From contig JAHJAA010000007.1 in the NCBI GenBank assembly GCA_018814305.1, positions 1 to 44,163 on the forward strand: DNA of 44,163 nucleotides, given 5' to 3'. The first letter of the stretch is position 1; each line of letters opens with the position of its first letter. The notes under the pieces are model-generated. The model was not told the origin of the DNA, ran no database searches, and saw only the letters and a program-made list of their open reading frames with translations. This document shows, piece by piece, positions 11,957 to 38,696 of this stretch. Made by a program: the position numbers and the translations under genes. Source of the stretch: Pseudomonadota bacterium (GTDB lineage Bacteria; Desulfobacterota; Desulfobulbia; Desulfobulbales; JAGXFP01).

Positions 11957-13183
11957 ATGGACAATTTCCATGACCCTGTTCGACATTTAAAATACCTTAG
12001 GCAATCACTATCGCAAGATAATGAATCAATTGGCTTTTTCATATCTGCAGGATGCCCTTTAGCTGTTGCTATGCCAGAAGGAGATTGGCCGTTAATACCA
12101 GCAGTTGAAGAACTCACCAAATTCATTAATGAGCAGTTGAAAAACAATGGAAAATATAAGTTGCTACTAGATGAACTAAAGAAAGCTGAAAAAAATATCG
12201 AAAATATCGAAGATATTTTAAGTTTTCTTAGGAGCTTATTACTAGTGTCCAAGGGCGGTGATGTAAGGGGGCTGAGCGAAACTGATTTGTTGGGCTTGGA
12301 GCGGGATATTTGCGCAGAAATCGTAAAAAAACTTGACGTATATTTGCCTGACAACGAAACACCATACCACCGTCTTTGTAAGTGGATAAGGTCAATAGAT
12401 AGAAAAATTGCGGTAGAGTTATTTACAACGAATTACGATTTGTTAATGGAACAAGCGTTGGAAGATTTAGAGGTTCCTTATTTTGATGGTTTTGTGGGCT
12501 CAAGAAGGTCTTTCTTTGACCTTAGAGCGGTCGAAGATAATCTGATACCTACTCACTGGTCGAGGTTATGGAAAATACACGGGTCAATTAATTGGTATCA
12601 AGAGGAAATTGACGGCCAGAAAAAAGTATATCGATCTTCAGAAATAAAGAAAGACGCATCGCATTTGATATATCCATCCCATCTTAAATATGAAGAAAGT
12701 CGGAAGATGCCATACCTAGCATTGATCGATCAATTAAACAGGTTCATACGAAAGAAATCTTCTTTTCTTATCCTCTCTGGTTATTCGTTTAATGATGGCC
12801 ATTTGAACGACACAATTATAAATGCACTAAAAGCAAACCCAACAGCAATGGTTCTTGGGTTAATGTATGACAGATACGAAATAAAATCTGGCGCTGATAA
12901 ATTCGCCGAAAGATACCCCGCAGCATATAGATTAGCCAAAAACCAACATAATCTTAACATTTGGACATTTGACAAAGCTATTATCGGAACAAATTTGGGA
13001 TACTGGAAGAGAATTAAAAACAAGGACGATGACGATATAGATTTGCTGCATTTTATTTGTCGCGAGGAAAAAGCTGCCGATGCCGATGCCCATGAGGACC
13101 TAATTAAACTTGGGAATTTCTCTGTATTTACGGACTTCCTTAAAAAGATAATAGGCATACCCAGGGAAGGTCAGGATGACTAA
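11957..13183 (+). CDS. SIR2-domain NADase of a SIR2-HerA defence pair
   Basis: The 408-residue protein has SIR2-like motifs: FFISAGCPL near residue 28 in place of the classical GAGxS loop, TTNYDLLMEQAL near residue 155, and WKIHGSINW near residue 205, with the His in the usual catalytic position. Bacterial SIR2 proteins in defence loci usually degrade NAD+ rather than deacetylate. The gene overlaps the next (HerA-like) gene by 8 bases. SIR2-HerA pairs are known antiphage systems in which the two proteins form a large complex; this is established family knowledge, not shown here. The coding DNA is more AT-rich than the hsd genes, suggesting a separate origin. Confidence 0.85.
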   Translation: MDNFHDPVRHLKYLRQSLSQDNESIGFFISAGCPLAVAMPEGDWPLIPAVEELTKFINEQLKNNGKYKLLLDELKKAEKNIENIEDILSFLRSLLLVSKGGDVRGLSETDLLGLERDICAEIVKKLDVYLPDNETPYHRLCKWIRSIDRKIAVELFTTNYDLLMEQALEDLEVPYFDGFVGSRRSFFDLRAVEDNLIPTHWSRLWKIHGSINWYQEEIDGQKKVYRSSEIKKDASHLIYPSHLKYEESRKMPYLALIDQLNRFIRKKSSFLILSGYSFNDGHLNDTIINALKANPTAMVLGLMYDRYEIKSGADKFAERYPAAYRLAKNQHNLNIWTFDKAIIGTNLGYWKRIKNKDDDDIDLLHFICREEKAADADAHEDLIKLGNFSVFTDFLKKIIGIPREGQDD

Positions 13184-15047
13184 TAAAGAAACCTACCTTG
13201 GTGATGTGCAAGATGTTAATGGAACCACCGTCAGTATTTCATTATCGAAGGAATCTTTAACGGGATTTGTATACATTGACGGCCAGGGATATCGTGTAGG
13301 CCAAATAGGTAGTTTTATAAGAATACCTATAGGTTTTAATGACCTGTTCGGTATTATCAGTCAAGTTGGCGCAAGCGCTATTCCTGAAAAACAAGCTGAC
13401 AACCAAGTTCATGGTAATAGGTGGATGACAATCCAGTTGATAGGAGAAGGCCCAAGAAACGGAACATTCCAAAGAGGACTTTCACAGTACCCAACCATTG
13501 GCGACGAAGTTCATTTAGTATCAGAAAAAGAACTAAAAAATATTTATGGGCAACCGGACAAACCATATTTTGTAAGGCTTGGGCACATATCAAACGCAGA
13601 TTCAATTCCGGCATTAATCGATGTAAATAAGCTAATCACAAGACATTCCGCTGTAGTCGGTACAACCGGTTCCGGAAAATCTACCACAGTGGCAAGCATC
13701 ATGAATGCGCTGTCTGATAGTGAGATGTATCCTTCTTCAAGAATTATCCTGCTAGATCTCCACGGAGAATACGGACAAGCGTTACAAGAGAAGGCACATA
13801 TTTATAAAATAAAAGGAGATGCATTTTCAAAGTTAAAAGAGCAAGAATTGCACATACCCTTTTGGGCATTAAATTTCGACGAGTTATGCGAGATTAGCTT
13901 CGGCGAGTTTAATAATGAAAAAGATAGAAATATAGTAATGGAGAGAGTGCAAAAATACAAAATTGAATCCTTGGCAAAACACCCACGAAAAGGAGTAACT
14001 GCCGACACACTTAGTGTTGACTCGCCAATTCCGTTCAGTATCCACCATTTGTGGCATGAGTTATTCATTGAAGTGTTTGGAACTTACTATAAAGGGAGAG
14101 CCGGTAAACCTATTGATAATCTGGCTTACGAAACGGACACCAATGGGAATGAGTTAAAAGGAATTCCAGAAAAAGGTATCCCTCCTATTTTTAAAAATAT
14201 CGTAACCGAAGCAGGTGAAGAAAAAATCAATTACTTGCCAGGTTCATTAAATGTAGGAAAGCAAGTTCTATTGTTGGGAACCAAACTAAGAATTCCTAGG
14301 TATGATTTTATTTTGAAGCCCGGTGATTTGACACCTGACGTTGAAGGAAAAGTCGTACAAGACTTAGATTTCCTTCTTAAGAATTGGATAGGTAGCAATA
14401 GGCCCGTTACGATACTAGATCTGTCTGGAATACCTGCCGATATTTTACAAACAACGATAGGTGCACTTCTTAGATTGCTGTATGAAGCTTTGTTTTGGGC
14501 TAGAAATTTGTCTCAAGGTGGTAGGCATAGGCCTCTGCTAGTAGTCATGGAAGAAGCGCATATTTATTTAAATGATGATTTAAAAGGCATGGCGTCAAAG
14601 ATAGTTCAGCGCATTGTTAAAGAGGGGCGAAAATATGGGATTGGTGGCATGATCGTGAGCCAGAGACCCTCAGAAATTAACCCTACAATACTTTCGCAAT
14701 GTGGCACATTCTTCGCTCTCAGGTTAACTAACGGTTCGGATAGAAAGCATATCACATCTGCTTTGTCAGATAACCTGGACGGCCTAACGGGCATGTTGCC
14801 CATATTAAGAACGGGCGAAGCAATAATTTTGGGCGAAGCTGTCAAATTGCCAATGCGGACAACAATAGAAGCGCCACCGAAGAATAGAAGGCCAGATAGT
14901 CAAGATCCCATTGTTTATGATGAGATCCCGTCAGACAAATCGCAAAACCCTGGTGGATGGGGTGTTAAGATGGAAGCGGAACCTAACTACGAAGAACTTG
15001 TTGAAGCCTGGAGAGCACAGAATCCGAAAATAGATAGAGTAAAATAA
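13176..15047 (+). CDS. HerA-family ATPase/DNA translocase of a SIR2-HerA pair
   Basis: The 623-residue protein starts with a small beta-rich HAS-barrel-like domain (residues about 1-130). The FtsK/HerA ATPase core follows: Walker A VVGTTGSGKST near residue 160, the LLDLHGEYG strand, and Walker B LLVVMEEAHIYL near residue 455. The conserved VSQRPSEINPTILSQCGT segment and the arginine-rich end follow. Such proteins form hexameric rings. In SIR2-HerA systems the ring assembles with SIR2, and both NAD+ consumption and DNA cleavage have been reported. All motifs look intact. It is followed 13 bases later by the small KTSC gene. Confidence 0.9.
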   Translation: MTNKETYLGDVQDVNGTTVSISLSKESLTGFVYIDGQGYRVGQIGSFIRIPIGFNDLFGIISQVGASAIPEKQADNQVHGNRWMTIQLIGEGPRNGTFQRGLSQYPTIGDEVHLVSEKELKNIYGQPDKPYFVRLGHISNADSIPALIDVNKLITRHSAVVGTTGSGKSTTVASIMNALSDSEMYPSSRIILLDLHGEYGQALQEKAHIYKIKGDAFSKLKEQELHIPFWALNFDELCEISFGEFNNEKDRNIVMERVQKYKIESLAKHPRKGVTADTLSVDSPIPFSIHHLWHELFIEVFGTYYKGRAGKPIDNLAYETDTNGNELKGIPEKGIPPIFKNIVTEAGEEKINYLPGSLNVGKQVLLLGTKLRIPRYDFILKPGDLTPDVEGKVVQDLDFLLKNWIGSNRPVTILDLSGIPADILQTTIGALLRLLYEALFWARNLSQGGRHRPLLVVMEEAHIYLNDDLKGMASKIVQRIVKEGRKYGIGGMIVSQRPSEINPTILSQCGTFFALRLTNGSDRKHITSALSDNLDGLTGMLPILRTGEAIILGEAVKLPMRTTIEAPPKNRRPDSQDPIVYDEIPSDKSQNPGGWGVKMEAEPNYEELVEAWRAQNPKIDRVK

Positions 15048-19496: not shown

Positions 19497-19957
19497 CAGC
19501 GATCAACATAACAAATACTTAGGCGGTCATCGTGAATGACTGTGCGCGCTATTCGCGCCAAGTACATTGGCGCCGTCTGCTGACTATAGGCGCTATAGAA
19601 AAGGGGTCGCGTCTTTGCTTGACTCACCTTGAATTAACTCGTCAATCAACATACCGCCCTAGTATTTTGACTAGGTTTAAAGTCGACATATCTCTTGAAA
19701 TTGGACACCTGGTATTCCGCCTCTTAGGCTTTTCAGGACGTTCAACATATCAAAGAGGCCTTCAACCTGCAAAAATGCAAAAAAACAAAAAGGACCAAAT
19801 ATCGGCTCAAAATCGCAATATCCAGCTTGTTGTTCAAAATCTTTGAACAATATTTCCGGGAAAGAACGTTCCTGTTTGCCAGCCTCAAACATTCGCTATT
19901 TAATGAGATTACCACCAAACAATGACACACGTAAACATCTGGAATAACATCAAAAAT
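19497..19957. other. Intergenic stretch with no convincing gene
   Basis: A 104-codon open frame at 19532-19846 has no ribosome binding site and an implausible composition. Reading its TGA as Gly adds only 21 residues and does not improve it. I see no RNA gene here. The junction between the STAND operon and the recoded block must lie in this stretch or just after it. Confidence 0.5.
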
Positions 19958-19985
19958 TTGACAAGCAGAAAATTTTCAGTATAAT
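19958..19985 (+). promoter_or_regulatory. Strong sigma-70-type promoter reading into the TGA-rich block
   Basis: TTGACA at 19958-19963 and TATAAT at 19980-19985 are both perfect consensus hexamers, 16 bases apart. The expected start point is near 19992, directly at the tRNA T-arm-like fragment and about 40 bases before the first ORF of the block. Confidence 0.7.
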
Positions 19986-19990
19986 TTATT

Positions 19991-20009
19991 CACGGTTCGA
20001 ATCCGGGCC
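19991..20009 (+). other. tRNA T-arm-like fragment
   Basis: CGGTTCGAATCCGG contains the invariant TTCGAAT loop of a tRNA T-arm with a short stem (CGG/CCG). No D-arm, anticodon arm or matching acceptor strand can be found upstream, where the promoter lies instead. It is probably the 3' end of a tRNA gene left as an attachment-site remnant. A deleted tRNA gene directly behind a tRNA-like promoter is the alternative. Confidence 0.4.
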
Positions 20010-20034
20010 AATTATTTTCTAACCAAATCTCCTC

Positions 20035-20335: not shown

Positions 20336-20382
20336 TAAAACAACGAAAACCAAAACAAAAATACCCCTTAACACCATATAGT

Positions 20383-21756
20383 ATGAAGAGATCAAAAACA
20401 GAATCTATACTGACCCACCTGACTCATTTTCTTAAATGGCTCTATCGCCCATTTCAGATTTATTCTCTGCACACCTTTTATTTCAGGATGAGAAAAATAC
20501 TCCCGCTCCACGCCTTTAAAAGACACGGATATATCGTCGCCTCTTCCGGTAGTGGGAAGAGTGAATTCATAAAAGTTCTGCTGTATCGTGAACTGATCAA
20601 AAAGAACCCGAATAACAGCATTATTGTCATTGACCCACATTGAGACCTTGTAGAAGAAATAGCCAGACTCAAGCCGATGAAAAAACGTCGGATTTCCAAC
20701 CGCGTGGTCTATATCGATCCTTCTCTTCACCCAGGATACAGCCCCAGCATCAATCCCTTTGAAATTGATGACCGTAGTGAGAAAACCATCGCCCTGATGA
20801 CTCAGGAACTGAGGAGCATTTTCGAAATTCTGCTGCAGGATGCCAGTACAACAAACCAGATGAGCGCGATTTTGAGCCCGTGCATCGCCACCCTGCTCAG
20901 AAGGCCAGACAGCGATTTTTCCGATCTGCAAAGGTTTATGGATGACAACAACAATCAGGACTTGGTGGCACTTGGTGCACAGTCTCCCAATCCCCAGCAT
21001 CGTACCCTGTTCCAGACTCGCTTCTACAACAAAATGTATTCCGCGACAAAGCACGGACTTTATACCCGTATGCAGGTGCTGCTGAACGAACCTGTTTTTC
21101 AGAACCTGATATCCAATACGACAAGCCTAAAATTGAAGCAGCTCATTAACCAGAAGAAAATCATCCTGTTCAAACTGTCCTTGTGAGAGTCTGGAAGTGA
21201 CAGTGTGCAATCCTACGGAAGATTTATTGTGGGCCTCCTGCGCATTTTGGCATTCCAGAGGAGCAGTATTCCCAAGGAATTCAGGGTGCCGACCTACCTG
21301 TTTATCGATGAATTCCAAAACTTTATTTCAGCTGATATTGAAAAAGCGCTTACCCAACTGAGGAAATATGGCCTTCATTTGGTTTTGGCCAATCAGTATA
21401 TCGGCCAGGTGGCATCCCCTGCATTGCAAAAAGCCCTCTTCTCAGCTGGGATCCTGATAGCCGGGAAAAATGAACGTAACAGCTTACGTGCGATCAGCAG
21501 GGAACTGGATGTCCCGATTCCTCTTTTGATGAACATGTCCGTAGGAGAATTCCTGGTGAGCACTCACCACCGGAAGCCATTGCTGATCAAGTCTCCCAAG
21601 CTGCTGCTGGATGGAAATTATTGTGTATCAAGCGAGGAGTGGCAAGAAATCAAAGCCAGAAATCTCCGCCAGTACTACTGTAAGCTCAGACCTTGGGTAA
21701 GCAACACCAGTAACTCCAGGGTCAGTAGATGACAAAAACCTGATACACTCCCCTAA
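20383..21756 (+). CDS. TraG/TraD/HerA-type conjugation ATPase with three in-frame TGA codons (UGA = Gly)
   Basis: In the standard code this is broken into three ORFs (20383-20643, 20677-21186, 21205-21732), all in one frame and separated only by TGA. Read with TGA as glycine it gives 457 residues ending at TAA 21754-21756. TGAs are at 20641, 21184 and 21730. Motifs run on across them: Walker A VASSGSGKSEF near residue 55, then VIDPH-TGA-DLVEEI, where the family has DPHGDL or DPKGDL, then FKLSL-TGA-ESGSDS, then Walker B-like TYLFIDEFQNF near residue 307 and LVLANQYIGQ. No frameshift and no internal TAA or TAG occur. It would be a DNA-transfer ATPase. No Shine-Dalgarno sequence precedes the ATG. 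Confidence 0.8.
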
Positions 21757-21791
21757 TCGCCTAACCCACCTATTTCTTAACCCTTCGTCCT

Positions 21792-22625
21792 ATGAATATC
21801 TCAGTCAACCAATTTATTATTTTGATGGCCCTGGCCAGATTCAAATTTCTGACATCTTCCCAGTTGAAACTCATATTGGGTTGCAAAAGCCTGAGTACGG
21901 TTAACAGTGCACTTCGTGGATTGAAATGATTTCGTTACCCATTGGTAAAAAGTATGGATTTCTGAGTTGCCCCTTGAAAATGAAGACTGGCACCAATCCA
22001 TCACTTGACCAAGACATGAAAGGATCAATTGCTGGAAGGAACCTCACTCACCCTGGAGGAGATTCAAAAGCCATCCTGAAGCGCCGTATTTTTCCAGAAT
22101 GATTATTTTCATCGTGTTTCCACTGTCCGGTTTGCCGTTTTGTTTCAGAAATGGCTGGCCGTCAATAATTATGGATTGGTTGAAATGGACCTCTACTTTA
22201 ACAGCAGGTACTTTGACGGCCAATTTCATACAGCCACCAGAACCTGGTCGCATGGCCGCGTTGTCGAGCCTGATGCCACCGCTATTTACAGCGCCAAAGG
22301 CGTCTACCACACCATTTTGTTCGAGCAACATAACGGTAGAGATGCCAAACGTGCACTGAAACAAATTAAGCAACACTGCCTTTGATTACTGAACGAGCGA
22401 TATCTGGTCCGTTTCACCCAGCGTGACGATATCCGCATCATTTATCTTTTTGAGAACCATCGCTGCATGAATGTGGTTATGAAATGAATGATGGTGAATC
22501 CGTTGATGAGATCTATTCAACACCTTTTCCTGTTCAAAGATGAAGATGAACTGCAACTGAGCTTTGCAGACGGATGGCATCATCCCGATGAAACAATCGT
22601 TTCATTCCTGCCCGGAGCCAAATAG
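21792..22625 (+). CDS. Replication-relaxation family protein with eight in-frame TGA codons (UGA = Gly)
   Basis: No standard-code ORF longer than about 90 codons exists here, yet one frame from ATG 21792 to TAG 22623-22625 gives a coherent 277-residue protein if TGA is glycine. TGAs lie at 21927, 21963, 21975, 21981, 22017, 22077, 22383 and 22485. The N-terminus is a winged helix (ALARFKFLTSSQLKLILG, then VNSALRGLK), followed by HHLTKT-TGA-KDQLLEG, where the family has a conserved LTxxG. The NDYFHRVSTVRFAV, VEPDATAIYSAKG and HTILFEQHNGRDAKRA segments match the C-terminal domain of replication-relaxation proteins of mobilisable elements. There is no internal TAA or TAG and no frameshift. Confidence 0.8.
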
Positions 22626-22713: not shown

Positions 22714-23040
22714 ATGAGTACATTGCTTACAAAAGAATTGGTCAAAATGTTTGAGAATTACCCTCTCTATGCTCAGGACGGTGAGTCAGATCCTTTGGTG
22801 GTCGCCAAATTGTTTGATGCATATGGTTCGGGCACCTGGTATCTGACCGAATATAACCCGGCAGAACAGGTTGCGTTTGGCTATGTCACAGGCTTGGCGT
22901 ATGACGAATGGGGCTATGTCTCACTGAAAGAGCTCGAGGAAATTCGACATCCATTCTTTAAGGTAAACCGTATCGAACGAGACCTCTATTTTGTTCAACG
23001 GCGTTTCTCTGCACTCGGTCTCAAGGAGGCCACTCGGTAG
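22714..23040 (+). CDS. DUF2958 domain protein
   Basis: I chose ATG 22714 because AAGGAG lies at 22701-22706, giving 108 residues that end with TAG. It matches the DUF2958 family of small plasmid and integrative-element proteins: NYPLYAQDGESDPLVVAKLFDAYGSGTWYLTEYNP, then FGYVTGLAYDEWGYVSLKEL and the IERDLYF end (segments of one continuous stretch). It contains no TGA at all, so it is compatible with either code, and its stop is TAG. It is the only gene of the block with a clear Shine-Dalgarno sequence. The function of the family is unknown. A strong hairpin follows the stop. Confidence 0.8.
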   Translation: MSTLLTKELVKMFENYPLYAQDGESDPLVVAKLFDAYGSGTWYLTEYNPAEQVAFGYVTGLAYDEWGYVSLKELEEIRHPFFKVNRIERDLYFVQRRFSALGLKEATR

Positions 23041-23074: not shown

Positions 23075-23456
23075 GCGAGTTTTGCATGTCGGATCTAACT
23101 CCTCAGCAAATCATCGCAATACGGAACTAATCGTCCATCGGTGCCTACGAAACGTCCCTGCCAACTTCCACGAAAAGACAACATCAATCCCCGGCAATTG
23201 TACGGTCCCCTTTCAAGGCAGTTTCTGCTTTTGGCTGCCGCCACAGCCGAACAGCTCTTGAAACCTCAACCATTAAAATTTTTCGGAAAAATATTCTCCT
23301 CCCCAAAAATCATCATTTTTTCTGGAAGACATTCATCCCAGTGTTTGCCATCAGCTCCCCTATTCCAATTTTTTTCAGATAAATTTGAGTGGCCTCGGAG
23401 CACCGTGGTCAATACCTGGGATTGATCGTCCCGATTTATTTTTTAATTTTTTGTTT
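23075..23456. other. Intergenic; no gene recognised
   Basis: Open frames at 23073-23261 and 23141-23425 overlap in different frames, lack ribosome binding sites and stay implausible whether or not TGA is read as Gly. The stretch is pyrimidine-rich toward its right end. It may contain the promoter of the next small gene, but I see no clear consensus. Confidence 0.4.
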
Positions 23457-23859: not shown

Positions 23860-24111
23860 GTGATGTTAAAAATTGAACGTAAATGAGCTCCATTTCGCTC
23901 TTCATTTTATTCAGAGAGTGAGAAATTTCTTTTATCATTCTTGATGACCACACTTGAAAATCCCCCCAAATTTGATTTAATAGCTACTCAGGGACGATAC
24001 TGAGGCAAGATTGCATGTTCGTAACGAACTTGCGAACCTTGCCAGGGCCAGCCCTAGAACCCGGACTGCACCAGCCGAGCTGGGCAATCGAAAAAGGTCG
24101 GAGATTTTGAG
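23860..24111. other. Intergenic between recoded block and mobilisation operon
   Basis: This AT-rich stretch holds no gene that I can support. It contains the inverted repeats of the putative transfer origin at 24004-24043, and it marks the place where TGA usage changes from sense codon on the left to stop codon on the right. Confidence 0.5.
24004..24043 (+). other. oriT: Putative origin of transfer (oriT): nested inverted repeats
   Basis: Outer arms GGCAAG (24004-24009) and CTTGCC (24038-24043) enclose inner arms GCATGTTCG (24013-24021) and CGAACTTGC (24025-24033), which pair with one mismatch around TAA. It lies 68 bases upstream of the mobC-like gene and its relaxase. Nested repeats next to mobC are where MOBP origins are usually found. 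The nick site cannot be determined by eye. Confidence 0.5.
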
Positions 24112-24492
24112 ATGGATGACAACAGGTCTACCTATCAAAAGTCGTACCGTAAGCGGCATGCCGAAAGGCACCGACGGATCAGCATCTCTGTGTCCAATGC
24201 CGAGTACTCTGCCCTGGAACATATGGCACGCCGAGAGAACACCAAGGTTACTACCCTGGTCCGGGACTATGCCTTCGCCGGACTTTCCAGAACTCTTTCC
24301 GTGCCAAACGAACTGAAAGGCGAACTCCAGCAACTGAGTTTCCTGGTCCGGAATATTGCCAACAATGTGAATCAAGCCGCCCACTACTCGCATACACTCC
24401 GACAGGTAGCCGACGAAAATGGCTTGCTGCAACAGATCAAAAAACTGGAGGAAACTATTCATGCCTTCGTCCAAGAGAGGATGAAGCCATGA
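24112..24492 (+). CDS. mobC: MobC-like ribbon-helix-helix mobilisation accessory protein
   Basis: The 126-residue protein has a basic N-terminus and a ribbon-helix-helix-like segment (RRISISVSNAEYSALEHMA, residues about 20-40). The MobC signature LVRNIANNVNQAAH follows near residue 84, then a coiled C-terminus. MobC proteins bind oriT and help the relaxase open the DNA. GGAG at 24100-24103 precedes the ATG. Its TGA stop overlaps the relaxase ATG (ATGA, 24489-24492), so here TGA clearly acts as stop, unlike in the block just upstream. Confidence 0.8.
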   Translation: MDDNRSTYQKSYRKRHAERHRRISISVSNAEYSALEHMARRENTKVTTLVRDYAFAGLSRTLSVPNELKGELQQLSFLVRNIANNVNQAAHYSHTLRQVADENGLLQQIKKLEETIHAFVQERMKP

Positions 24493-25445
24493 TTATCAAA
24501 TCCATGTCCCGCAAGGAGTCCTCCTTCAATCAGCTGATCGACTACATGGGGTCTGGGAGAGCAGATGAGCGCTTCACTATCCTTCACAATATCTTTAGCC
24601 GGAACCCGGATCAAATCAAGGATGAATTTTACCAAAATGCTGGGTTCCTCCATCGCCGGACAGGCGGCAACTACATGTATCACGAAGTAATCTCTATAAC
24701 CCGGAGTGATCGACTGAGACTTGACGAGCAGAAGGAGAAATTACGGCAGATTGCAATGGATTACATCCGTGACCGTGCCGAAAATAACCTGGCCTATGGT
24801 GCCCTGCACGATGACCATGACAATAATATCCATTTTCATCTGATTATCAGTGCCAATGAGGTTTATTCCCGCAACCGACACCGACTCTCCAAGTATCGGT
24901 TTGACCAGATCAAGAAGGATTTGGAAAAACGAGTACTGGAATGCTATCCAGAGCTGCAGCAAAAAGAACTGATCAATCGCTCAGCAGGAGAACGCATATC
25001 AAACAAAGGTTCCGAGCTGAAGCGGCGAACCGGAAAAACCCCTCAACGTGATTTGGTCAGGGAAAAGGTCAAGACCATTTTTGAACAGGTTTCGACCAGA
25101 GAGGAGTTCCTTGAAAGTTTTGAGAAGGCTGGTTTGAATTTTTATATCCGGGGGAAAGCGCCTGGGGTGATCGATCTGCAGACCGGGCGGAAATTTCGCA
25201 TTAAAACACTAGGATTTCTCTCCCAGTATGAAAACATATCCCAGAAAATTGAAATGAACCTGATGCAGAAGTATGGACATACTGGCAATAAAAAAGCCCA
25301 AATGCATCAGGAAGAGAAATCGACAAAGAAGTGCTCGAAAATAACAAAAGAGGAACGAAACGACAAACGGAAGCAAGAGAAAATGGCCCGTCATCGAGCT
25401 CGTTCGCAGCAATCTGCAGGGGAAAAAGATGGCCACAAACGATGA
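24489..25445 (+). CDS. mobA: MOBP-type relaxase (MobA/VirD2-like)
   Basis: The 318-residue protein shows relaxase motifs: an N-terminal tyrosine in NQLIDYMGSG (residue about 19), the probable nicking residue, and the metal-binding histidine motif HDDHDNNIHFHLIIS near residue 108. The C-terminal third is very basic and Lys/Arg-rich. It would nick oriT and lead the strand through transfer. It overlaps the next gene by 17 bases. There is no large primase or helicase domain, so this is a small mobilisation relaxase. The TGA stop is genuine, because reading through would add only two residues before TAG and the overlap with virD4 is normal. Confidence 0.85.
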   Translation: MIIKSMSRKESSFNQLIDYMGSGRADERFTILHNIFSRNPDQIKDEFYQNAGFLHRRTGGNYMYHEVISITRSDRLRLDEQKEKLRQIAMDYIRDRAENNLAYGALHDDHDNNIHFHLIISANEVYSRNRHRLSKYRFDQIKKDLEKRVLECYPELQQKELINRSAGERISNKGSELKRRTGKTPQRDLVREKVKTIFEQVSTREEFLESFEKAGLNFYIRGKAPGVIDLQTGRKFRIKTLGFLSQYENISQKIEMNLMQKYGHTGNKKAQMHQEEKSTKKCSKITKEERNDKRKQEKMARHRARSQQSAGEKDGHKR

Positions 25446-26973
25446 TTGGAATAGTTGGTCAGGAAAAAAACGCCCCTCTTCAAAGAGCGTTCCACTTGGC
25501 GGATCACTGTTGTCAGATACCATGAAGGGAATCTTCAAAGGCGGCTTGTACCTTCTTGGCCGGAAACTCAACCGCTCAAAAGAAGGAGCAACCTTCGACT
25601 CAGAGTCTGATTATTCAAGCTATCTGAATTCGAGCAATAATGGACTGCTTCTGGATGGCGACAAACTGCGCCTTTCAGAAAGAGACAGCATACAGAATGT
25701 CTGTGTGATGGCCCGCATCGGAGCTGGAAAAACGTCTCGGTACATCATCCCGAATGTACTTGGTAGAGCCCGATCTAAATGCTCAATTGTAGTGAATGAC
25801 CCGAAGGGAGAAGTGTATCAAAACACCTCTGAGCATATGCGCAGGAGTGGATTCAAGGTTGTGGCCATCAACCCGGAAAATCTTGACGGAACCAGTCACT
25901 TCAATCCCCTTTCTGAAGCTAGGAGTGACATCGAGATAGAGCAGATTGCCGAAATTCTAGTGCGCAGTGGCACGCCAACGCATGGTGGGAAGGATGACTT
26001 CTGGATACAGGGATCTATTCGCTTTGCCAATCTATTCATCAAGTGCCTAAAGAATGCAGGTCGGACTAACCAAGGCTACTACAACCTCCATAACCTTTAT
26101 TACCTGTTCCAGAATTTTGGAGAAGATGGGAGGGACCTTGATAAATTCATGGTCAGGTATGCGAAAAATCCAGACGACCCACTCGACGATACCCTCTGGC
26201 ATGAGTGGCAGGGTGTGCTGACCGGCAACAAGGAGGGGGTTCAAAGTTTTATCCTGAATGGTATTACCGCTCTTAAAAGTTTATCCAACCGGAATCTTGC
26301 CGAGCTCACCTCTTATTCCGATATCAGCCTTGAGGATATTCGCAAGGAAAAGACTATCATATACATGATCACCCCTGCCCAGCATGCTGAATACTACAGT
26401 TTCCTCACCAGTCTGTTTTTTCGGAGTGTTTTCAATGCCTGCATGCGACAACTGCCAGACAAGCGGACGCTACCAGTCTACGTCCTCTACGATGAATTCG
26501 GGCACTCTACAATTCCCAATTTTGTTTCGACAGCGAACACCATCAGGGGCTACGGCGTTTCAATATCCATAATCCTGCAAAGCATAAGTCAGCTCAGGGC
26601 CAGGTATGGTGCGGAATACGCCAACTCGATCCAAGGTGGCTTTAATACCTATCTGACGTACGCAGGTGCCGATCCTGTGACTGCCGATTTTTTTGAGAAA
26701 GTTGTTGGTCGAGTTCGGCTGCGGCAAAAAGAAAATTACTTCGACCATGTAGAGCAATATCAAGAGTACAACCTGATGAATGCAGGAGAAGTCAGGACAA
26801 TAGATTCAGATGAAGCGCTGGTCGTTTCCGGCAACCGACAACCCATCAAGTTGAAAACTCTTCCCTATTTTCAAAATTGGTCCTTGATGCGCTGCGCGAA
26901 CAAAGGGCCAGCGCACCTGGCTCCCCCTGAATCGGCTGGTAAGAGGCTGCAGTATGTTGGGCTAGATAAATGA
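25429..26973 (+). CDS. virD4: VirD4/TraG-family type IV coupling protein
   Basis: The 514-residue protein has the coupling-protein core: Walker A ARIGAGKTSRYIIPNVL near residue 97, Walker B-like VVNDPKGEVYQ near residue 121, the VLYDEFGH motif near residue 350 and ILQSISQLRARYG near residue 383. It feeds the relaxase-DNA complex to a type IV channel. The usual N-terminal transmembrane anchor is missing. The two small membrane proteins directly downstream could supply it, which is an inference. No channel genes (VirB4, VirB6 and so on) are in the window, so the element is probably mobilisable rather than self-transmissible. Confidence 0.9.
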   Translation: MATNDDWNSWSGKKRPSSKSVPLGGSLLSDTMKGIFKGGLYLLGRKLNRSKEGATFDSESDYSSYLNSSNNGLLLDGDKLRLSERDSIQNVCVMARIGAGKTSRYIIPNVLGRARSKCSIVVNDPKGEVYQNTSEHMRRSGFKVVAINPENLDGTSHFNPLSEARSDIEIEQIAEILVRSGTPTHGGKDDFWIQGSIRFANLFIKCLKNAGRTNQGYYNLHNLYYLFQNFGEDGRDLDKFMVRYAKNPDDPLDDTLWHEWQGVLTGNKEGVQSFILNGITALKSLSNRNLAELTSYSDISLEDIRKEKTIIYMITPAQHAEYYSFLTSLFFRSVFNACMRQLPDKRTLPVYVLYDEFGHSTIPNFVSTANTIRGYGVSISIILQSISQLRARYGAEYANSIQGGFNTYLTYAGADPVTADFFEKVVGRVRLRQKENYFDHVEQYQEYNLMNAGEVRTIDSDEALVVSGNRQPIKLKTLPYFQNWSLMRCANKGPAHLAPPESAGKRLQYVGLDK

Positions 26974-27277: not shown

Positions 27278-27522
27278 ACGAGACAGAACAAATTTTTACT
27301 CATATTTTCGCCTTTGGCTTAGGGTATGCCATTGCGTTCTCGGTGAAAAACGTGGGGAGAATTTACAAGGAGTGGGGGCTTCTTATCAGCGGTCTTCTTT
27401 TTCCGTCAATTGCCATCGGATTGATTCTTGCTGCCGCAATGATAGCAGATAAGAAAAGTCTGATTTTAAGCTCGGTATTTGGTGCAGGTTTCCTTATCAG
27501 AATGTTGAAGTCACGCTCATGA
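27274..27522 (+). CDS. Small membrane protein of the mobilisation operon
   Basis: The 82-residue protein has about two membrane helices (residues 10-24 and 36-58: LLISGLLFPSIAIGLILAAA) and a short basic end. It overlaps both neighbours through ATGA junctions, so the three membrane-protein genes are one translational unit. No family is recognised, and it may be a diverged relative of the preceding protein. Confidence 0.6.
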   Translation: MNETEQIFTHIFAFGLGYAIAFSVKNVGRIYKEWGLLISGLLFPSIAIGLILAAAMIADKKSLILSSVFGAGFLIRMLKSRS

Positions 27523-28274
27523 AAAGCCTTTCATCGTACATATTTATTGCTGTCATTATGTCCAGCGTGGGCTACATGGCAACCAGAACAAAGAATTTCA
27601 ATATCTGGAAGATGGGGCTGTTAGCATTTATAGCAGCTCCAATTATCATGTCTCTGGAAAATTCTGAAACAGCAGCCTGGGTGGCGGTAACTGCGTTTTT
27701 TGCCGGATATCTTTTGCCTCATGCACATATCTTGGATGGTTTCTTCGGTACAATTAGTGATTTGGTTAATAGTGTCCGCTATAGGGATGATCGTAGACGC
27801 ATCAATTCACAGAAAGAAGAGTTAAGGAGAAGAGAGGAAGAACTGCGCCGCCAAGAGGAAGAACTGGAACGACTCCGCCGGGCTTACGAAGAGGCAATGC
27901 GAAACAGCCAACAGTCTCAACAACATTTTGAAGAAAAAAATAGTCAGGGCGGGCGACAATATGAAAAAGGGGGTAGGGGAAAGCATGAGGATTTTGGCAG
28001 GAAAAAATCCGGTGACAACACGAATTCTAGCTCGAATACAAGGAGACAACCCGACCCAGAATCGAAAAGAACAATCCACCTTAAGGCATTGGGATTCGAT
28101 CCAAACAAGCAATACTCGGAGGATGAAATAAAAATCAGGAAGAGGATGCTGTTGCAAAAGTATCACCCCGACAAACACTACCGAAAGAGCGCAGAAGAGC
28201 TCCACAAAGTGAACGAAAAAACGCAGGAAATTATTCAGGCGGCTTACTGGCTGGAGAGACACCCTGACGAGTAA
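27519..28274 (+). CDS. Membrane-anchored J-domain protein with coiled coil
   Basis: The 251-residue protein has three parts. Two or three membrane helices lie in residues about 5-75. A long, highly charged coiled coil rich in R and E follows at residues about 90-135. After a low-complexity linker comes a C-terminal J-domain-like segment (residues about 185-245) with the diagnostic HPD in LLQKYHPDKHY. J-domains recruit and stimulate DnaK/Hsp70. Fused to membrane helices in a mobilisation operon, it may help remodel the relaxosome or transfer protein, which is inference. It ends with TAA. Confidence 0.75.
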   Translation: MKSLSSYIFIAVIMSSVGYMATRTKNFNIWKMGLLAFIAAPIIMSLENSETAAWVAVTAFFAGYLLPHAHILDGFFGTISDLVNSVRYRDDRRRINSQKEELRRREEELRRQEEELERLRRAYEEAMRNSQQSQQHFEEKNSQGGRQYEKGGRGKHEDFGRKKSGDNTNSSSNTRRQPDPESKRTIHLKALGFDPNKQYSEDEIKIRKRMLLQKYHPDKHYRKSAEELHKVNEKTQEIIQAAYWLERHPDE

Positions 28275-28296: not shown

Positions 28297-28662
28297 ATGG
28301 AAACAGGGCATATTTACACACCAGAAAACGACACCTATCAAGCGAGACTCTCAGCACTCCAGGAGGTCCTTCGTGCACGTGAGCAGGTTAAACGTAGCCG
28401 TTTACACGCTGATTCGCCCGAGTGGTCAAATGCATTAGGTAGTCTTGAAGAGATTGAACAAGCCGAAGAGGTCATTGATGCCAGTTTCTCTATGGCAGCA
28501 CAGGATTTCAATAGAGAGGAACTCCAGCAGGCAAGGAGTGACAAAGCACTGACCGACAACCAATTGACAGAAATTATCAACGCTGTTCGCACCAAAGAGA
28601 TCGACGCGAAACGAAATGACAACAGTTCTGATGAAAAATCCAATTCGAATACACGCTCATGA
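28297..28662 (+). CDS. Unknown helical protein of the mobilisation operon
   Basis: The 121-residue protein is predicted to be almost entirely helical and rich in Glu, Gln and Ser (for example SLEEIEQAEEVIDASFSMAAQDF). GGAAGG at 28286-28291 precedes the ATG. Its TGA overlaps the next ATG (ATGA at 28659). I recognise no family or motif. Confidence 0.6.
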   Translation: METGHIYTPENDTYQARLSALQEVLRAREQVKRSRLHADSPEWSNALGSLEEIEQAEEVIDASFSMAAQDFNREELQQARSDKALTDNQLTEIINAVRTKEIDAKRNDNSSDEKSNSNTRS

Positions 28663-29093
28663 AAAATCAGCCATTCTCAGACAACATGAAAGAGATCGCC
28701 GACAGCATGGGCATTTCTTTGTACCAGCGGTTCAGCCTCAATGAAGCATCTCTCTTTCTGCGTTGTTCAACAGAGGACCTTTTGAAGATCACGAAATCAC
28801 ACACAATCTCCTTTATCCAGGTAACCCGGGATCAGGTCGATTTCTTTGGTTTCCAACTCCTGGATTATTTGCTGAATAACGTAGTAACCAAAGCCCAGCC
28901 AGCTCCTTCTAAATCAAAGACCAACCCAGAGCGAATTGTTCGGGCAAAAGAACTCCAGGAATTGACTGGATTGTCACGAACAACTATCTGGAGAATGGAA
29001 CGGGACGGCAAATTCCCCTCGCGAGTCCCCCTTTCAGGGAGCAGCGTAGGATGGCGATATACTGAGCTTATGGATTGGATGAGGACGAGATAA
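28659..29093 (+). CDS. AlpA-like helix-turn-helix regulator
   Basis: The 144-residue protein ends in a MerR/AlpA-type helix-turn-helix (residues about 95-140: RAKELQELTGLSRTTIWRME, then DGKFPSRV and a GWRYTELMDWM end), as in phage and integrative-element regulators. The N-terminal half has a second helix-turn-helix-like part (FSLNEASLFLRCSTEDLLK). As last gene of the mobilisation operon it may regulate transfer or excision. No integrase gene is seen nearby. Confidence 0.75.
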   Translation: MKNQPFSDNMKEIADSMGISLYQRFSLNEASLFLRCSTEDLLKITKSHTISFIQVTRDQVDFFGFQLLDYLLNNVVTKAQPAPSKSKTNPERIVRAKELQELTGLSRTTIWRMERDGKFPSRVPLSGSSVGWRYTELMDWMRTR

Positions 29094-29383
29094 AGGAACT
29101 GAAGTTTGTTTTAGAACACAGGACTTGAGATTTTGTGACCTTTACGCTTATTTTCTGAAACAAAAACCGACCTACTTAGTGTTTTGCTGGTCTAGCTGAA
29201 ATTACGCATAAAATACACTGAGAATACTCTAGCAAACATATTGCTTTACTACTATTTTTAAAAGTATACAGTAGTTGTCTGGGAGGCATATACACACTCT
29301 CTGGATGTAAAAACATACTATGTTACGTATAAAAAATGCAGAAATGCTCTGAAAATTTGAGCTGCTTAGGGGTTAAATCGAAA
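29094..29383. promoter_or_regulatory. AT-rich intergenic region with possible promoter
   Basis: No gene is visible here. TTGCTT at 29241-29246 and TATACA at 29265-29270, 18 bases apart, form a possible sigma-70 promoter for the three-gene system that follows. The base composition drops sharply from here to about 37 kb. Confidence 0.4.
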
Positions 29384-31825
29384 ATGAAAATTACTGATGG
29401 CTCAGGAGCAGACCTTACTTCAAACAAAGTTATTGATAGCCTTAGAAACAAAAAAATAAATATAAGACTTAAAACTGAGCATTCAATTTTAGGAATTAAG
29501 GGGCGCAAACAGTTAGCTAAGCTATTTGATGTTGTTAGCGAGTTTCTTCAAAATAAGAAAATAAATCCCGGTCATATCAAGGGGATGATTGAAATTGTGT
29601 TTGACCCTCATACAAAGAGTTTCGATCCTACAGTTGCCGCTTGGGGGATTCTCTTTTCAGGATTGTTGACTAAGGTTACTTTTAGGTTTTCCTTTCCTCA
29701 TGGAGACGTAGGTAAGAGCCCCGCTTTATATCGCCTGAGTCAAATACTTCTTCCACATCTTGTGTTGAAGAAAACCAATATTGAGTTGCGGTCCTATGAT
29801 ATAGGAAGACCTGGGAAGCTATTCTCTTGGCAAAATTTTCTGCGTCAACACCTTAGGGTCTCATCAGCATATCTGCCACCAATAAATCTTAACAATAAAA
29901 ATTATGTTTTTTACTTCGATAATAACGCAAGGGTTATCTGGAATAGTCTATTTAATGCAAGTGAAATTGCGAAGCTACTTGAAAAAAATGTTCCCCATAA
30001 ATCAACCTCTTCATCAAAAGACAAAGACATAGGTAAATTAATATTTAATATTATTCGTGAAAGATTGTTAGATGAATTGTTTGATAATGGTGAAGTTAAT
30101 TATGAAAGAATTGTAAATGTTTTACTAGTATTATATATGGCAAAAGCAATAACATTATTGAAATGTTGGATAGTAGTCCTTGATAAATATATTTCAGAAG
30201 GAAGTAATGCTCGACTATATCGTTATGTGTCAGGAAAGTCTAGCAAGGTAGGCTCACTAAAATATAACGAAAAACTAGAATACTATAAGAAAAACAAAGA
30301 AATACTAAGTCAAGTATTTGATAGTTCTCCTTTTTCAGTCTTTTTGTTTTCTTTTTTTCTAATCAACAATTACTCCCCAAACATGTATTCAGGTGATCCC
30401 GATCATCAACTTGACAAATTATTAAGTCAAATAAAGTCTATTCGAAACGTTTCTGTTGAAATCTATTCAGGGGTTTATGAGTTAGCTAAAAACATTGTTG
30501 AACATGTTCCAGAAGGAAATGGTTTTATAATTGGCAGGGTGTTTACAGCTGATTATTTAAAGGAAATTTACTCAGAGGAGTATGAGGATTTCAGGACCTA
30601 CATAAATTCATTTCAAGGTGATCAGCAATTTTTTAATTGTGTTGTCTTTGATAATGGGAAAAAGGGCATTTTGTATAAAACTCAAAGCAAAATTACCAAG
30701 CTAATACCGTCGGTTCAAAACAAGATTCTTAAAAAGCATTTATCAGATGAATTGGAGTGTTTTAATAATCAAACACTGGGGTTGCATGATTTTTTTGATT
30801 TGAAACATGTTCGAATGTTTCACCAGAAAATCAGGACCGCCGCGAGCCTCGGTCTGTTAATGCTAACAAATATGCTACGCATTAATAACGGTTTTTTATC
30901 TGTCAGTAGTGTTGATAAACATGGAACTCAGGGGATAGTTTACTATGGGAATGAAACAAAATCTCTACAAGGGGAATGGTGGGCAAATATTGGTACCCAA
31001 TTTGAATTATTTGTGCCCGTGTCCGCCAAAAAACCTCTTGAGTTACGAGCTCGACAGTATAGGCCTGTAGAGCCAATTATAGCAGGCGATGCATATGAGG
31101 GGCTTCTTAACTATTGTACCATAGATGAGAAAGATGAAATTCATAGCTCCTGTAATATTTGTGATCCTCATGTATTGTGTCTACATAATTCCTCAACTAC
31201 CAATGTTCATTGGGAATCATTTCATCTAGAGCATGCAAAACTATTTAACAAAATCAGTAGTTCTAAATGTAATGATCACCATAGAAAAGTTTTCACAATT
31301 AAGATCGAAGACAATAACAATTTTATAGATGCGAGCGACCTATTTCGTTTGTTAGCACAGCTGCAAATTGAGGTGGGATATAATGCTGTCGTAATTTATA
31401 ACCTCAAAGAAGAAACGTTACATACCTTTTTTGAGATATTCAGAATATATGGAGAACTTTTGGGAATGGATGTTTGGAGTGGACACCAAACTGCACTTTT
31501 TTATTATGTCCCACAGAGTTCGTCATCCCATAAAAAGTTTAGCGCTTTTTTAGTTACAGGTCGAACTTTAAGGGATTTAGTGAATTCAAACGAAACCATA
31601 CATTCCCATAGCCCCGGTGATCCAATATGGAATGATTTCTTTCCTATGACGCAGAAAAGTGGAGAAGATGAAGATCTTATGGAGAAACAAATTGACAATC
31701 CACTGGTTATTGATGGGAAATACTTGATTCCACTGGATTTGGTGCTAAAAGTTGATGGGCTTTCGTTGTTCGAATGGAATATGCGCACTAACCTCTTAGA
31801 TGAATTGTTAGGAGGTGACTTGTGA
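29384..31825 (+). CDS. Large GHKL-ATPase-like protein, first gene of an unnamed three-gene system
   Basis: The frame is open from ATG 29336, but I prefer ATG 29384 (MKITDGSGADL), as no ribosome binding site precedes the first, giving about 813 residues. I do not recognise a named family. The middle has features of a GHKL/histidine-kinase ATPase: an N-box-like VYELAKNIVEHVPEGNG near residue 370, a D-box-like VVFDNGKKGI near residue 420, and a G-box-like AASLGLLMLTNMLRINNGFLSVSS near residue 490. A cysteine-rich stretch (SSCNICDPHVLC) follows near residue 590, which could bind metal. No His phosphoacceptor domain is evident. The coding DNA is very AT-rich. The stop overlaps the next GTG. Confidence 0.65.
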   Translation: MKITDGSGADLTSNKVIDSLRNKKINIRLKTEHSILGIKGRKQLAKLFDVVSEFLQNKKINPGHIKGMIEIVFDPHTKSFDPTVAAWGILFSGLLTKVTFRFSFPHGDVGKSPALYRLSQILLPHLVLKKTNIELRSYDIGRPGKLFSWQNFLRQHLRVSSAYLPPINLNNKNYVFYFDNNARVIWNSLFNASEIAKLLEKNVPHKSTSSSKDKDIGKLIFNIIRERLLDELFDNGEVNYERIVNVLLVLYMAKAITLLKCWIVVLDKYISEGSNARLYRYVSGKSSKVGSLKYNEKLEYYKKNKEILSQVFDSSPFSVFLFSFFLINNYSPNMYSGDPDHQLDKLLSQIKSIRNVSVEIYSGVYELAKNIVEHVPEGNGFIIGRVFTADYLKEIYSEEYEDFRTYINSFQGDQQFFNCVVFDNGKKGILYKTQSKITKLIPSVQNKILKKHLSDELECFNNQTLGLHDFFDLKHVRMFHQKIRTAASLGLLMLTNMLRINNGFLSVSSVDKHGTQGIVYYGNETKSLQGEWWANIGTQFELFVPVSAKKPLELRARQYRPVEPIIAGDAYEGLLNYCTIDEKDEIHSSCNICDPHVLCLHNSSTTNVHWESFHLEHAKLFNKISSSKCNDHHRKVFTIKIEDNNNFIDASDLFRLLAQLQIEVGYNAVVIYNLKEETLHTFFEIFRIYGELLGMDVWSGHQTALFYYVPQSSSSHKKFSAFLVTGRTLRDLVNSNETIHSHSPGDPIWNDFFPMTQKSGEDEDLMEKQIDNPLVIDGKYLIPLDLVLKVDGLSLFEWNMRTNLLDELLGGDL

Positions 31826-34800
31826 ACCGAGGTTACGCCTTTCTTGGTGCTCATGTTAAGCTAGGAGCAAAAATCCACATAAGAGATTTTTTCTTTGGAC
31901 GACATATATTCCAAAATAGTTATTACTCCTTAAGGTGTGCTTTTTTAGTTTCAGGAAAAATTTGTGATCTAATAGAGGAAAAAAGAAAAAATGAGTATAT
32001 TGAAGTAAAAAGTATTTCAATACTAATGAACGGATCTTATGGCGAGTTGCTTGCAAGTAATGTATGCAGGTTTATCTCTGATAAAATAAAAAGCATTACA
32101 GCAAACTATATCATTTATGATGACCTGAGCAATTCATTTTTGGATCTTGATGAGTTAAATGAATATTATTGCGTGGTTGTTCCTATTGCTAGTACTTTGT
32201 CGACAGCAAACAAAATGATTCGGTGCGTTAACATAGAAAACAAAAAACAATCTAAATCACTTGGACATCCAATAAATGTAATAATTGCTGGTCATAAAGA
32301 ACTTTCGGATATAGTCGATGATAGTGGTTTAGTAACTGATACATTAGTCAAAAATTATTGGGAACGAATTGATGTTGACAAAAGAGTAATTAGTCTCTCT
32401 CGTGGCCGTGGAAAGCAGGAGTATTGCGTATACGTACCCAGTCAGTGGGAATCTGGAAAAAATTGCTCATTATGTTTTCCTGATGATCCACTTATCGAGA
32501 AGTTTCTATACCATGTTCATAAAGCCTCACTAGTCCCGCCCCTAATATTAGACTTTCCTGAATCAAAAAAAGATGGTGGAAAATTTTCAGTTGCTATTAA
32601 CTTTTTATTAGGAAGTAGTAGAAATAGAATATCCCCACCGGAAATATCCTCTCCGGAAAATCATGAATATCCCGCTATTCTGACAGATAAAGTACTTGAA
32701 TATAATCATTACACTCGTGGCTCTAATCATTTCATTTATTACATAGATACAGTTAAATTTTTTGAAGAGAACGTATCCCAAGTAGAAAAGTGGTTAGAAA
32801 GAATTTCTCCTACAGTATTTAAGAATATTTCTGCTGCTGAATCTGTGCTGTTAATTTCTCCGGCTCACCCAACTAATTCGGGTTTTGTTAATATTATTAA
32901 CAGGAAGTTATTCGGTAGTACTGCGGAAATTTATCACTGTGAAATTGGTGAGGAATACAAACAAGATATTGACCGCTTTTTTTCTCGAAGAATTAAAGAA
33001 AACACTAAAATATATTACGTTGATGATGCTATTTGTAGCGGGGGGACCTTTTCTAGATTGAGTCACCTTCTTGGATGGCAATCTTTTAATGGTAATAGCA
33101 GGAAGTTCGATGGGGCCTTTTTTCTTATTAATAGGCTTTCAGTTGAAGCGGATAGTTCAATTAGAAAAAGACTTGATGAGGTCCTCTTTTCTTTTGTCAT
33201 GCTTGAACTTCCTGTGATGTTAAGCTCCAACCGTAATTGTTATTTATGTAAAGCGCTGGAGGACGAAAAAGACATTCTCTCGTCAATAATTTTAGATGCT
33301 GTTGCAACTAGAAGTTACAAAAGAGTTAGTAAGCTGTCTCCTACAGATGCCTTATGTAAAGAGGATAAAACAAGTAGCAAACAATTCACAAAACACCGTA
33401 TGGGAGCTGAAAAACCAGGGCGCTATCTCGAAAGAATGCAGATGGAGCATGATTTAGTTAGATGCTTTTCTTTTGAACCCCATCAAAGTGAATTAAAAGA
33501 AATATTTTCTGAATATGAAAAATCACAGAATGGTGTTGATCGCATATTGCATATATTAAATAAAAATATCAGCACATTAGAGAATAGAATTAATCTTATT
33601 AAGATTATTACTCTTCCTCCTTTGTCCTCATATAATCTTATAAGGTCTGCGTCTCTTAAATGGGTCCTTTTTGAGTTCATTGAAACTGAGAAAATATTTT
33701 CAAAGCTTTTAGATGACTTTTTTTCTAGTGATGAACGTAATGTAGAGATTTATAGGCGCTTAATAAACCGTGTCAGGTATATAAAGTTTTTAATAAGGCG
33801 GCTGGCTCACCTCAGGTCAAATTTTCTTGTGAGGAAAAAGTTCTTCTCAATTTTAAACTCTTTCTATGAAAGAATCAGGAAGGTTTATGATTGTATTCGT
33901 GAAGTTAAGACATCTATAAGCTCTGGGAATATAAAGGATAATAAATCAAATAAACCGTCACAACAAACAGTTGGTCAAAGTCTTCAGAAATTGACAGTAG
34001 TAGAAATTGATTCTGTTATTAAGCTGCTTGATGAATTTAATGTTTTTCTTACATACTGCATAAAGTCGATTGTATTCAATGATGAGACCAAAGCTCTTCG
34101 GCTTGAAGAAACACTTGACTATGTTGAATCAGAACGTCATTTCCATCCAACATTTAAAACACTATGTAGAATGATCAGGATCGAGAATGTCAACCCTGTT
34201 CAAGATTTTTTAAAGCTCATTACTAGTAATAAAGTTCTGCTAGAAGAGAATTTTCTTTTTACAAAACGTAAAATTAATCAAGACAAAGATCGAATCAATT
34301 TTATATTAAAATCTGAAAGTTTTTTAAATCTACATAGGCTCGAACCATTTTATAAGTTTATCGGATTGGATATTAATCCTTTTGATACTGATACCCTGTT
34401 AGAGGATTTACTTATAAAAAGTCCTTTGTGGGACCAAAAAATTCTTCCTTTAATCCTATTGAAAGTTTTCCTTGCCAAAGGAACTAATGTTGAACCCGGT
34501 GAAGAATCACATCTGAAATATATTCTATCATTACTATGTCAAATTTTAGGCATGGCTGATGATACATCAGGTGCATTTTGTCTCTCACGCTATTCAACTA
34601 ATAAGCAGGATGGGGAAGGTTCTTTTTTGACAACAGTCACTGCCAATGTTTTCCCAAGTGAATTGGATGATAATTTTAAACCTAACCTTATTGAAGATCG
34701 ACAAGTAATACCTCGTCTTTTTTCTCATAAAATACTCGAGGGAAACATCCCACCTTTGTCGAAAATACCTTGGACGAATTATGAGGTACTTGCCGAAAGG

Positions 34801-38437: not shown

Positions 38438-38468
38438 AAAAAAGGGCCTGGTGCAGGGCCCTTTTTTT
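38438..38468 (+). terminator. Rho-independent terminator upstream of tRNA-Met
   Basis: GGGCC (38444-38448) and GGCCC (38457-38461) pair, extended by A-run/T-run pairing, and are followed by seven T. It separates the IS region from the tRNA transcript. The flanking A and T runs would let it act in both directions. Confidence 0.7.
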
Positions 38469-38469
38469 A

Positions 38470-38500
38470 TTGACAAGATGACGAAAATTTTACATATAGT
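38470..38500 (+). promoter_or_regulatory. Probable promoter of tRNA-Met
   Basis: TTGACA at 38470-38475 is a perfect -35 box. The -10 lies within TACATATAGT (38491-38500), with CATATA giving the ideal 17-base spacing. The tRNA begins 23 bases further on. Confidence 0.55.
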
Positions 38501-38522
38501 CAAACTCTTGTGATCAAAATTT

Positions 38523-38599
38523 GGCGATGTAGCTCAGCTGGTTAGAGCATGCGGCTCATATCCGCAGTGTCCGGGGTTCAAGTCCCTGCATCGCCACCA
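38523..38599 (+). tRNA. tRNA-Met (anticodon CAU), CCA encoded
   Basis: A complete cloverleaf is visible: acceptor GGCGATG/CATCGCC, D-arm GCTC/GAGC, anticodon stem TGCGG/CCGCA around loop CTCATAT (anticodon CAT at 38557-38559), and T-arm with loop TTCAAGT. The discriminator A and genomic CCA end at 38599. The elongator-type first pair G-C argues against initiator tRNA. tRNA-Ile2 (CAU read after lysidine modification) is the alternative. It is a possible integration site for the accessory DNA, but no integrase is seen. Confidence 0.95.
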
Positions 38600-38633
38600 A
38601 GCCAATATCCGGTATCATCCGATACTGTCCCGA

Positions 38634-38662
38634 AAGCCCTGAGTAATCAGGGCTTTTTCTTT
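38634..38662 (+). terminator. Terminator after tRNA-Met
   Basis: AAGCCCTGA (38634-38642) and TCAGGGCTT (38647-38655) form a perfect 9-bp stem with loop GTAA, followed by a T-rich stretch (TTTCTTTTTC). It ends the tRNA transcript and lies just before the truncated start of the HigB-like gene. Confidence 0.85.
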
Positions 38663-38696
38663 TTCTGTTGTCCAGTTCATCAGTTTCGAAGAATTT

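Follow-up and report, generated by a model that had tools for sequence, protein, structure and literature searches.

Genes with in-frame TGA and their surroundings

The window, the 44,163-nucleotide stretch of DNA analysed here, is a contig of a 4.15-Mb genome that is 97% complete. Most of it is written in the standard code, as seen from frequent TGA stops and ATGA start/stop overlaps (at 7114, 18211, 18798, 24489, 28659 and 31822); a gracilibacterial contig and the use of code 25 over its whole length are both ruled out, since the neighbouring genes stop at TGA. Between 20035 and 23825, on the other hand, four genes contain in-frame TGA. They lie on the + strand, as do the other genes of the element in the window, and encode a small conserved protein termed P4 (20035–20292; 85 residues, one TGA), a TraG/VirD4/HerA-like ATPase with a TraM-recognition region (20383–21756; 457 residues, three TGA codons read as glycine, including that of a DPHG motif), the replication-relaxation-like protein RR (21792–22625) and a conserved acidic protein termed P3 (23457–23825; 122 residues, two TGA codons read as glycine, in YGGPNIY and WGGD), for which no match was found in Pfam or PADLOC. 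A fifth code-25 gene, encoding a replication initiator (Rep), is present in relatives of the element only; neither Rep nor an integrase similar to that of the relative L010 (relatives are described below) was found on the window contig.

The RR gene had been predicted to become readable only if TGA is taken as glycine, and this was borne out: translated with table 25, its frame extends from ATG to TAG over 277 codons with eight TGA and zero internal TAA or TAG, while table 11 yields no ORF of at least 100 amino acids in the RR frame. The TGA codons occupy positions 46, 58, 62, 64, 76, 96, 198 and 232. The five at codons 46–76 fall within 93 bases (21927–22019), matching the cluster of about 90 bases originally described, and Gly76 is the conserved glycine of an LTxxG-like motif (HHLTKTGK). 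Orthologues at five other loci are 40–57% identical to the window protein over their full or available length and display TGA or GGN at identical conserved columns of the alignment. The RR frame is far beyond chance expectation because of these orthologues, the preserved TGA/GGN columns and the purifying selection reported below.

The window RR matches the PF13814 (Replic_Relax) profile weakly (E 0.098; 13.2 bits, with a cut-off of 25.3), but its code-25 orthologues in L006 and L009 score 26.7 (above the cut-off) and 25.3 (reaching it); RR is a divergent member of the Replic_Relax family, and the family assignment of the original prediction stands through these orthologues, the window copy itself remaining below the threshold. 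The AF2 model of RR (pLDDT 83, pTM 0.84) comprises an N-terminal winged helix and a C-terminal nuclease-like domain, for which a Foldseek search against the PDB returned weak matches (best E 1.1e-3) to PadR/MarR-type winged helices and to FokI/XisH/AF2093. The traits of replication-relaxation proteins, namely a winged helix, an LTxxG-like motif and a nuclease-like domain, are all present, the two folds being those of the model. The TGA-encoded residues had been expected in turns, and most of them are indeed placed in loops (five of eight: 46, 58, 62, 64 and 96), but residue 76 is at the start of a helix and residues 198 and 232 are inside helices.

The ATPase scores above the cut-offs for DUF87 (48.6 bits), T4SS-DNA_transf (42.7 bits) and TraG-D_C (23.1 bits) and contains the Walker A sequence ASSGSGKS, as expected of a coupling protein of the HerA/TraG type; its structure prediction was poor (pLDDT 50) and was left unused. 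A DUF2958 gene (22714–23040), compatible with the standard code and preceded by the Shine–Dalgarno (SD) sequence AAGGAG, sits among the code-25 genes. It is followed, beyond P3, by genes encoding a MobC/NikA-like mobilization protein (24112–24492; Pfam scores below the cut-offs), a MobA/VirD2-type relaxase (PF03432; 24489–25445), a TraG/VirD4 coupling protein (25429–26973), a DnaJ-like protein (27519–28274; profile match below the cut-off), a small ORF weakly similar to one of the Colwellia elements' ORFs (28297–28662; 28% over 76 residues) and an AlpA-type regulator (28659–29093), which marks the right end of the recognizable core. MobC, the relaxase, TraG and the small ORF all stop at TGA.

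Several noncoding features accompany these genes. Upstream of P4, a palindrome, TTGTTCAAAATCTTTGAACAA (19830–19850), is a possible operator or Rep site, and is followed on the + strand by a sigma70-like promoter (TTGACA ... TATAAT; 19958–19985); similar versions of both are found in L005, L009 and L011. A leader hairpin recognized by eye (GGTTCG-AATC-CGGGCC; 19994–20009, + strand) has counterparts in the relatives that differ in sequence and also form hairpins; the tRNA-like GGTTCGAATCC at 19994 is ruled out as a tRNA, being this leader hairpin with unrelated sequence in the relatives. Between P3 and MobC, a conserved stretch (24007–24062) is oriT-like, a function suggested by its position and conservation. 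The original prediction was right in reading TGA as glycine and in the protein family, but had missed the standard-code surroundings, the two-code element and its differing ribosome-binding signals; the finding is larger than first described, RR being one of five code-25 genes in an element family.

Codon use, start signals and selection in the two gene sets

The genes of the element fall into two sets. Set B consists of Rep, P4, the TraG/HerA-like ATPase, RR and P3, while set A contains the integrase where present, AlpA, MobC, the MOB relaxase, the TraG coupling protein and DUF2958, as well as the DnaJ-like protein and the small ORF of the window. Sense TGA makes up 71 of the 214 glycine codons of set B versus 0/207 in set A, and SD sequences precede 0/22 set-B genes versus 15/22 set-A genes, most of which have AAGGA-like sites; these counts, like those given below for YTAAY and for CGA and CGG, include homologous genes, so that Fisher values overstate their independence, and the TGA and SD contrasts recur in every element examined. 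A YTAAY motif is found within −4 to −22 of the start in 18 of 23 set-B genes (mean 5.1 and maximum 11 in 500 shuffles), compared with none of 20 set-A genes and 12 of 87 host ORFs, and in set B it mostly ends 8–11 nt upstream of the ATG, which is a ribosome-binding distance. In the window, it precedes the ATG of P4 (CTAACC; 20019–20024), the ATPase (CTTAACACC; 20367–20375), RR (CTTAACCC; 21776–21783) and P3 (TTAATT; 23443–23448), in each case on the + strand. CGA and CGG are also rarer among the CGN codons of set B (31/159, versus 91/192 in set A). The 31 set-B codons lie in arginine-like contexts, several of them in columns conserved as arginine, and none was found at a tryptophan position; they are still read as arginine.

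In alignments, TGA falls on conserved glycine columns, where it is exchanged for GGN among homologues; these columns include both Walker A glycines, DPHG and the LTxxG motif. With an HMM built exclusively from 72 standard-code homologues, glycine reached a sum of +21.6 nats over 24 columns, two of which hold ambiguous bases rather than TGA and do not favour glycine, and the next best residue, alanine, reached −10. Readings of TGA as Trp, Cys or Ser are ruled out by the same HMM. In the window, both Colwellia elements and L009, set-B genes terminate at TAA or TAG only, as in code 25, and their frames are free of internal TAA and TAG. Judged from sequence, TGA almost certainly stands for glycine in a selected set of genes located inside standard-code chromosomes.

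A comparison of the two Colwellia elements gives dN/dS values of 0.02–0.145 for set B, at dS 0.3–0.57, similar to those of the relaxase (0.11) and TraG (0.06) of set A; two TGA positions of one element are GGG or GGC in the other. By these ratios, set B is under purifying selection. This bears on the possibility that set B is a relic, which a standard-code element would have picked up on one occasion from a code-25 bacterium and which would since have drifted along untranslated. Code 25 and the missing SD sequences would fit such a donor, as would the lack of a visible decoder in the standard-code hosts tested, but the dN/dS values and the TGA/GGN exchanges between close relatives largely refute a relic, and the uninterrupted set-B frames of the four elements named above and the conservation of the code-25 genes across at least six divergent elements also oppose it, making it improbable. 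The GC3 of set B tracks that of the standard-code host (about 0.47–0.55, 0.23–0.37 and 0.18–0.35), and the elements therefore spend much of their history, and seemingly undergo most of their mutation, in a standard-code host.

Relatives of the element and their hosts

Relatives were sought with the ATPase in 84,980 species genomes (GTDB), which yielded seven close relatives with 57–84% identity, all containing in-frame TGA. Three are short contigs of metagenome-assembled genomes (MAGs; L005, L006 and L011), while the others belong to a Flavobacteriaceae MAG (L007), a gammaproteobacterial MAG (L009), a Colwellia MAG (L010) and a Colwellia isolate, Colwellia sp. 1_MG-2023, in which the element lies on a 345-kb contig (L008). 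The ATPase genes of L005 and L006 are nearly identical, yet their bins are assigned to Gammaproteobacteria and Neomarinimicrobiota, respectively, with bin names that suggest Saanich Inlet samples; neither for these two short contigs nor for L011 can the bin assignment be relied upon.

The core order in the relatives is AlpA, Rep_3 initiator (PF01051/PF21205, above the cut-off), P4, ATPase, RR, DUF2958, P3, MobC, relaxase and TraG, with matching gene order in the window, L008, L009 and L010. The L009 element is flanked by genes for UvrB, LeuA, QueA and RecN, with a tRNA-Asn upstream, while the L010 element has groEL and, next to it, a tyrosine integrase gene as neighbours; these two elements and that on the 345-kb contig of the isolate reside in standard-code chromosomes. 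Misjoined or misbinned code-25 contigs might mimic such an arrangement: MAGs are the source of the window and of most relatives, the nearly identical L005 and L006 were binned to different phyla and assemblies contaminated with code-25 sequence have been described (PMC8629427). Such an artefact is nevertheless very improbable in view of the recurring gene order, the chromosomal flanks of L009 and L010 and the host-like GC3, and the 345-kb contig of the isolate effectively refutes it, barring a misjoin in this contig as well.

Among 394 genomes of the order of the Colwellia isolate the element was found only in the isolate itself, and searches of viral contigs and plasmids revealed no close relative. 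No code-25 genome with a relative was apparent among the best 80 matches of the GTDB scan. None of 379 sampled Patescibacteria was recognized as code 25 (a minority was not individually checked), so that this sample is no test of code-25 carriage, and a search of IMG/VR for code-25 phages with a tRNA-Gly(UCA) pattern gave no usable match. The nearest standard-code relative of the ATPase and RR pair is found in an Arcobacter MAG (L012), with an ATPase homologue of 33% identity and an RR homologue of 30%, no TGA and AAGG before RR.

Decoding of TGA and the possible life of the element

Set B might be translated in the standard-code host by an unrecognized UGA-to-Gly decoder, an aberrant tRNA or other RNA provided by the element or by another replicon, combined with alternative initiation. 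The intactness and selection of set B in standard-code chromosomes and its host-like GC3 would agree with this, and there is precedent in the stop-recoded phages of standard-code hosts (cited in PMC10746230). On the other hand, ARAGORN, as well as Rfam at gathering and lax thresholds (up to E 5–10), revealed no UCA-anticodon tRNA on the elements, and the 47 Rfam tRNA hits in the draft genome of the Colwellia isolate include none either; a UCA anticodon/T-arm pattern, which is unspecific, gave no match verified as a tRNA in five genomes. These searches speak against a suppressor tRNA, which would also not explain the missing SD sequences of set B.

The element does bear a conserved, branched, structured RNA-like stretch before P3 (23201–23432, + strand, ends approximate), which counts in favour of decoding within the host. 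It spans about 215 nt, is shared by five elements (at about 8210–8430 in L009 and 2520–2740 in L006) and shows double, compensatory changes in 15 of 50 predicted pairs; it has no Rfam match. It is no obvious decoder, because its loops vary and none contains a conserved UCA; a leader RNA is one possibility, and a single-strand promoter folded within the leading region is another. Decoding within the standard-code host, with recoding then serving as a switch much like that of phages whose late genes are recoded, is the main rival to the explanation given next, but is less likely than it.

The explanation that we favour, with about an even chance of being correct, is that of a bilingual shuttle element, the second gene set of which serves a Gracilibacteria-like code-25 host. 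Set A, with the standard code and mostly SD sequences, would act in the standard-code host during integrated life, while set B, with code 25 and YTAAY, would serve a plasmid-like life in epibionts that read TGA as glycine; genetic code and start signal would jointly constitute a host-specific expression lock. These last two proposals, taken jointly, come close to an even chance. Set B would be silent in the standard-code host and expressed in the second, most probably in Gracilibacteria-like epibionts, with YTAAY as its putative start signal. After conjugative transfer to this second host, Rep would replicate the element, which would then use its own ATPase and RR. The integrase, relaxase and TraG would thus work in the standard-code host and Rep, the ATPase and RR in the code-25 host. 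In this reading, the rare family would be one of integrative, mobilizable elements with gene sets for two translation systems.

The combination of recoded TGA and missing SD sequences speaks for a second host that translates differently rather than for a suppressor tRNA in the first host. The presumed oriT separates set B from the relaxase, which places set B where a leading region, the first part to enter a recipient, would be expected. Absconditabacteria, which use code 25, are SD-scarce and have a noncanonical anti-SD (PMC10783764), and Absconditicoccaceae are epibionts of Gammaproteobacteria (PMC13059738). Because the CGA and CGG codons of set B remain arginine, a Gracilibacteria-like host fits better than Absconditabacteria, in which both codons are predicted to encode tryptophan (PMC8629427). 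In an oil-degrading community, the abundance of a Gracilibacterium increased alongside that of Colwellia, with which it may be associated (PMC6851277). Weighed against the lack of a code-25 carrier among the best 80 GTDB matches, the host-like GC3 of set B and the window without Rep or integrase, the shuttle reading is left evenly poised.

The element shares with the code-25 genomes and prophages of Absconditabacteria and Gracilibacteria (PMC10746230; PMC13059738) the reading of TGA as glycine, and set B shares with Absconditabacteria the scarcity of SD sequences, but its recoded genes are embedded in standard-code chromosomes, next to genes with TGA stops, and the CGA and CGG codons of the recoded genes align with arginine. 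Lak and other stop-recoded phages of standard-code hosts likewise combine host-code and recoded-stop genes in one mobile genome, as far as their citation in PMC10746230 describes them. The element is, however, not a phage: its genes are of the Rep, Mob and TraG type, the recoded ones being those of replication and transfer, TGA is read as glycine, no suppressor tRNA was found and the start signals differ as well. Phages crossing both codes have been inferred, with code-11-compatible phages predicted for code-25 CPR and standard-code bacteria (PMC10746230); these are also mobile elements proposed to cross the code boundary, but avoid in-frame TGA everywhere, whereas the element keeps a separate code for each gene set. 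Set A has the parts of mobilizable elements with AlpA, a tyrosine integrase, MobC, a MobA-type relaxase and TraG, from which the element differs by a second coupling-type ATPase, RR and Rep_3 in another code. No earlier report of such a two-code element was found in the open-access literature, most subscription papers being outside this scope.

Differences in genetic code are generally regarded as an obstacle to gene exchange, yet this element family keeps selected genes in two codes, and with two start signals, side by side in standard-code chromosomes. If the shuttle reading is correct, conjugation would be seen to cross a code boundary, and the element would hint at the hosts on which code-25 epibionts live; otherwise, the element would contain a new way of reading TGA as glycine. 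Standard-code gene callers miss the set-B genes.

Elsewhere in the window, an AT-rich block to the right of the element core (29336–36755; GC about 0.35) contains two very long ORFs, the first of which (29336–31825) has no match in Pfam or PADLOC. Two very similar protein stretches at 38451–39197 and 42282–42677 (DELAAAICKKI...IRILK/NSLKILKPKIWGYKGTIYKLRV...) surround a large sensor kinase gene and represent a local duplication. A two-gene SIR2–HerA defence system lies upstream of the element at 11957–15047 (PADLOC: SIR2 517 bits, HerA 545 bits), and an AbiEi/AbiEii pair at 693–2452 has a second AbiEii-like copy, with nearly the same protein stretch, near the opposite end of the contig (43374–43979).
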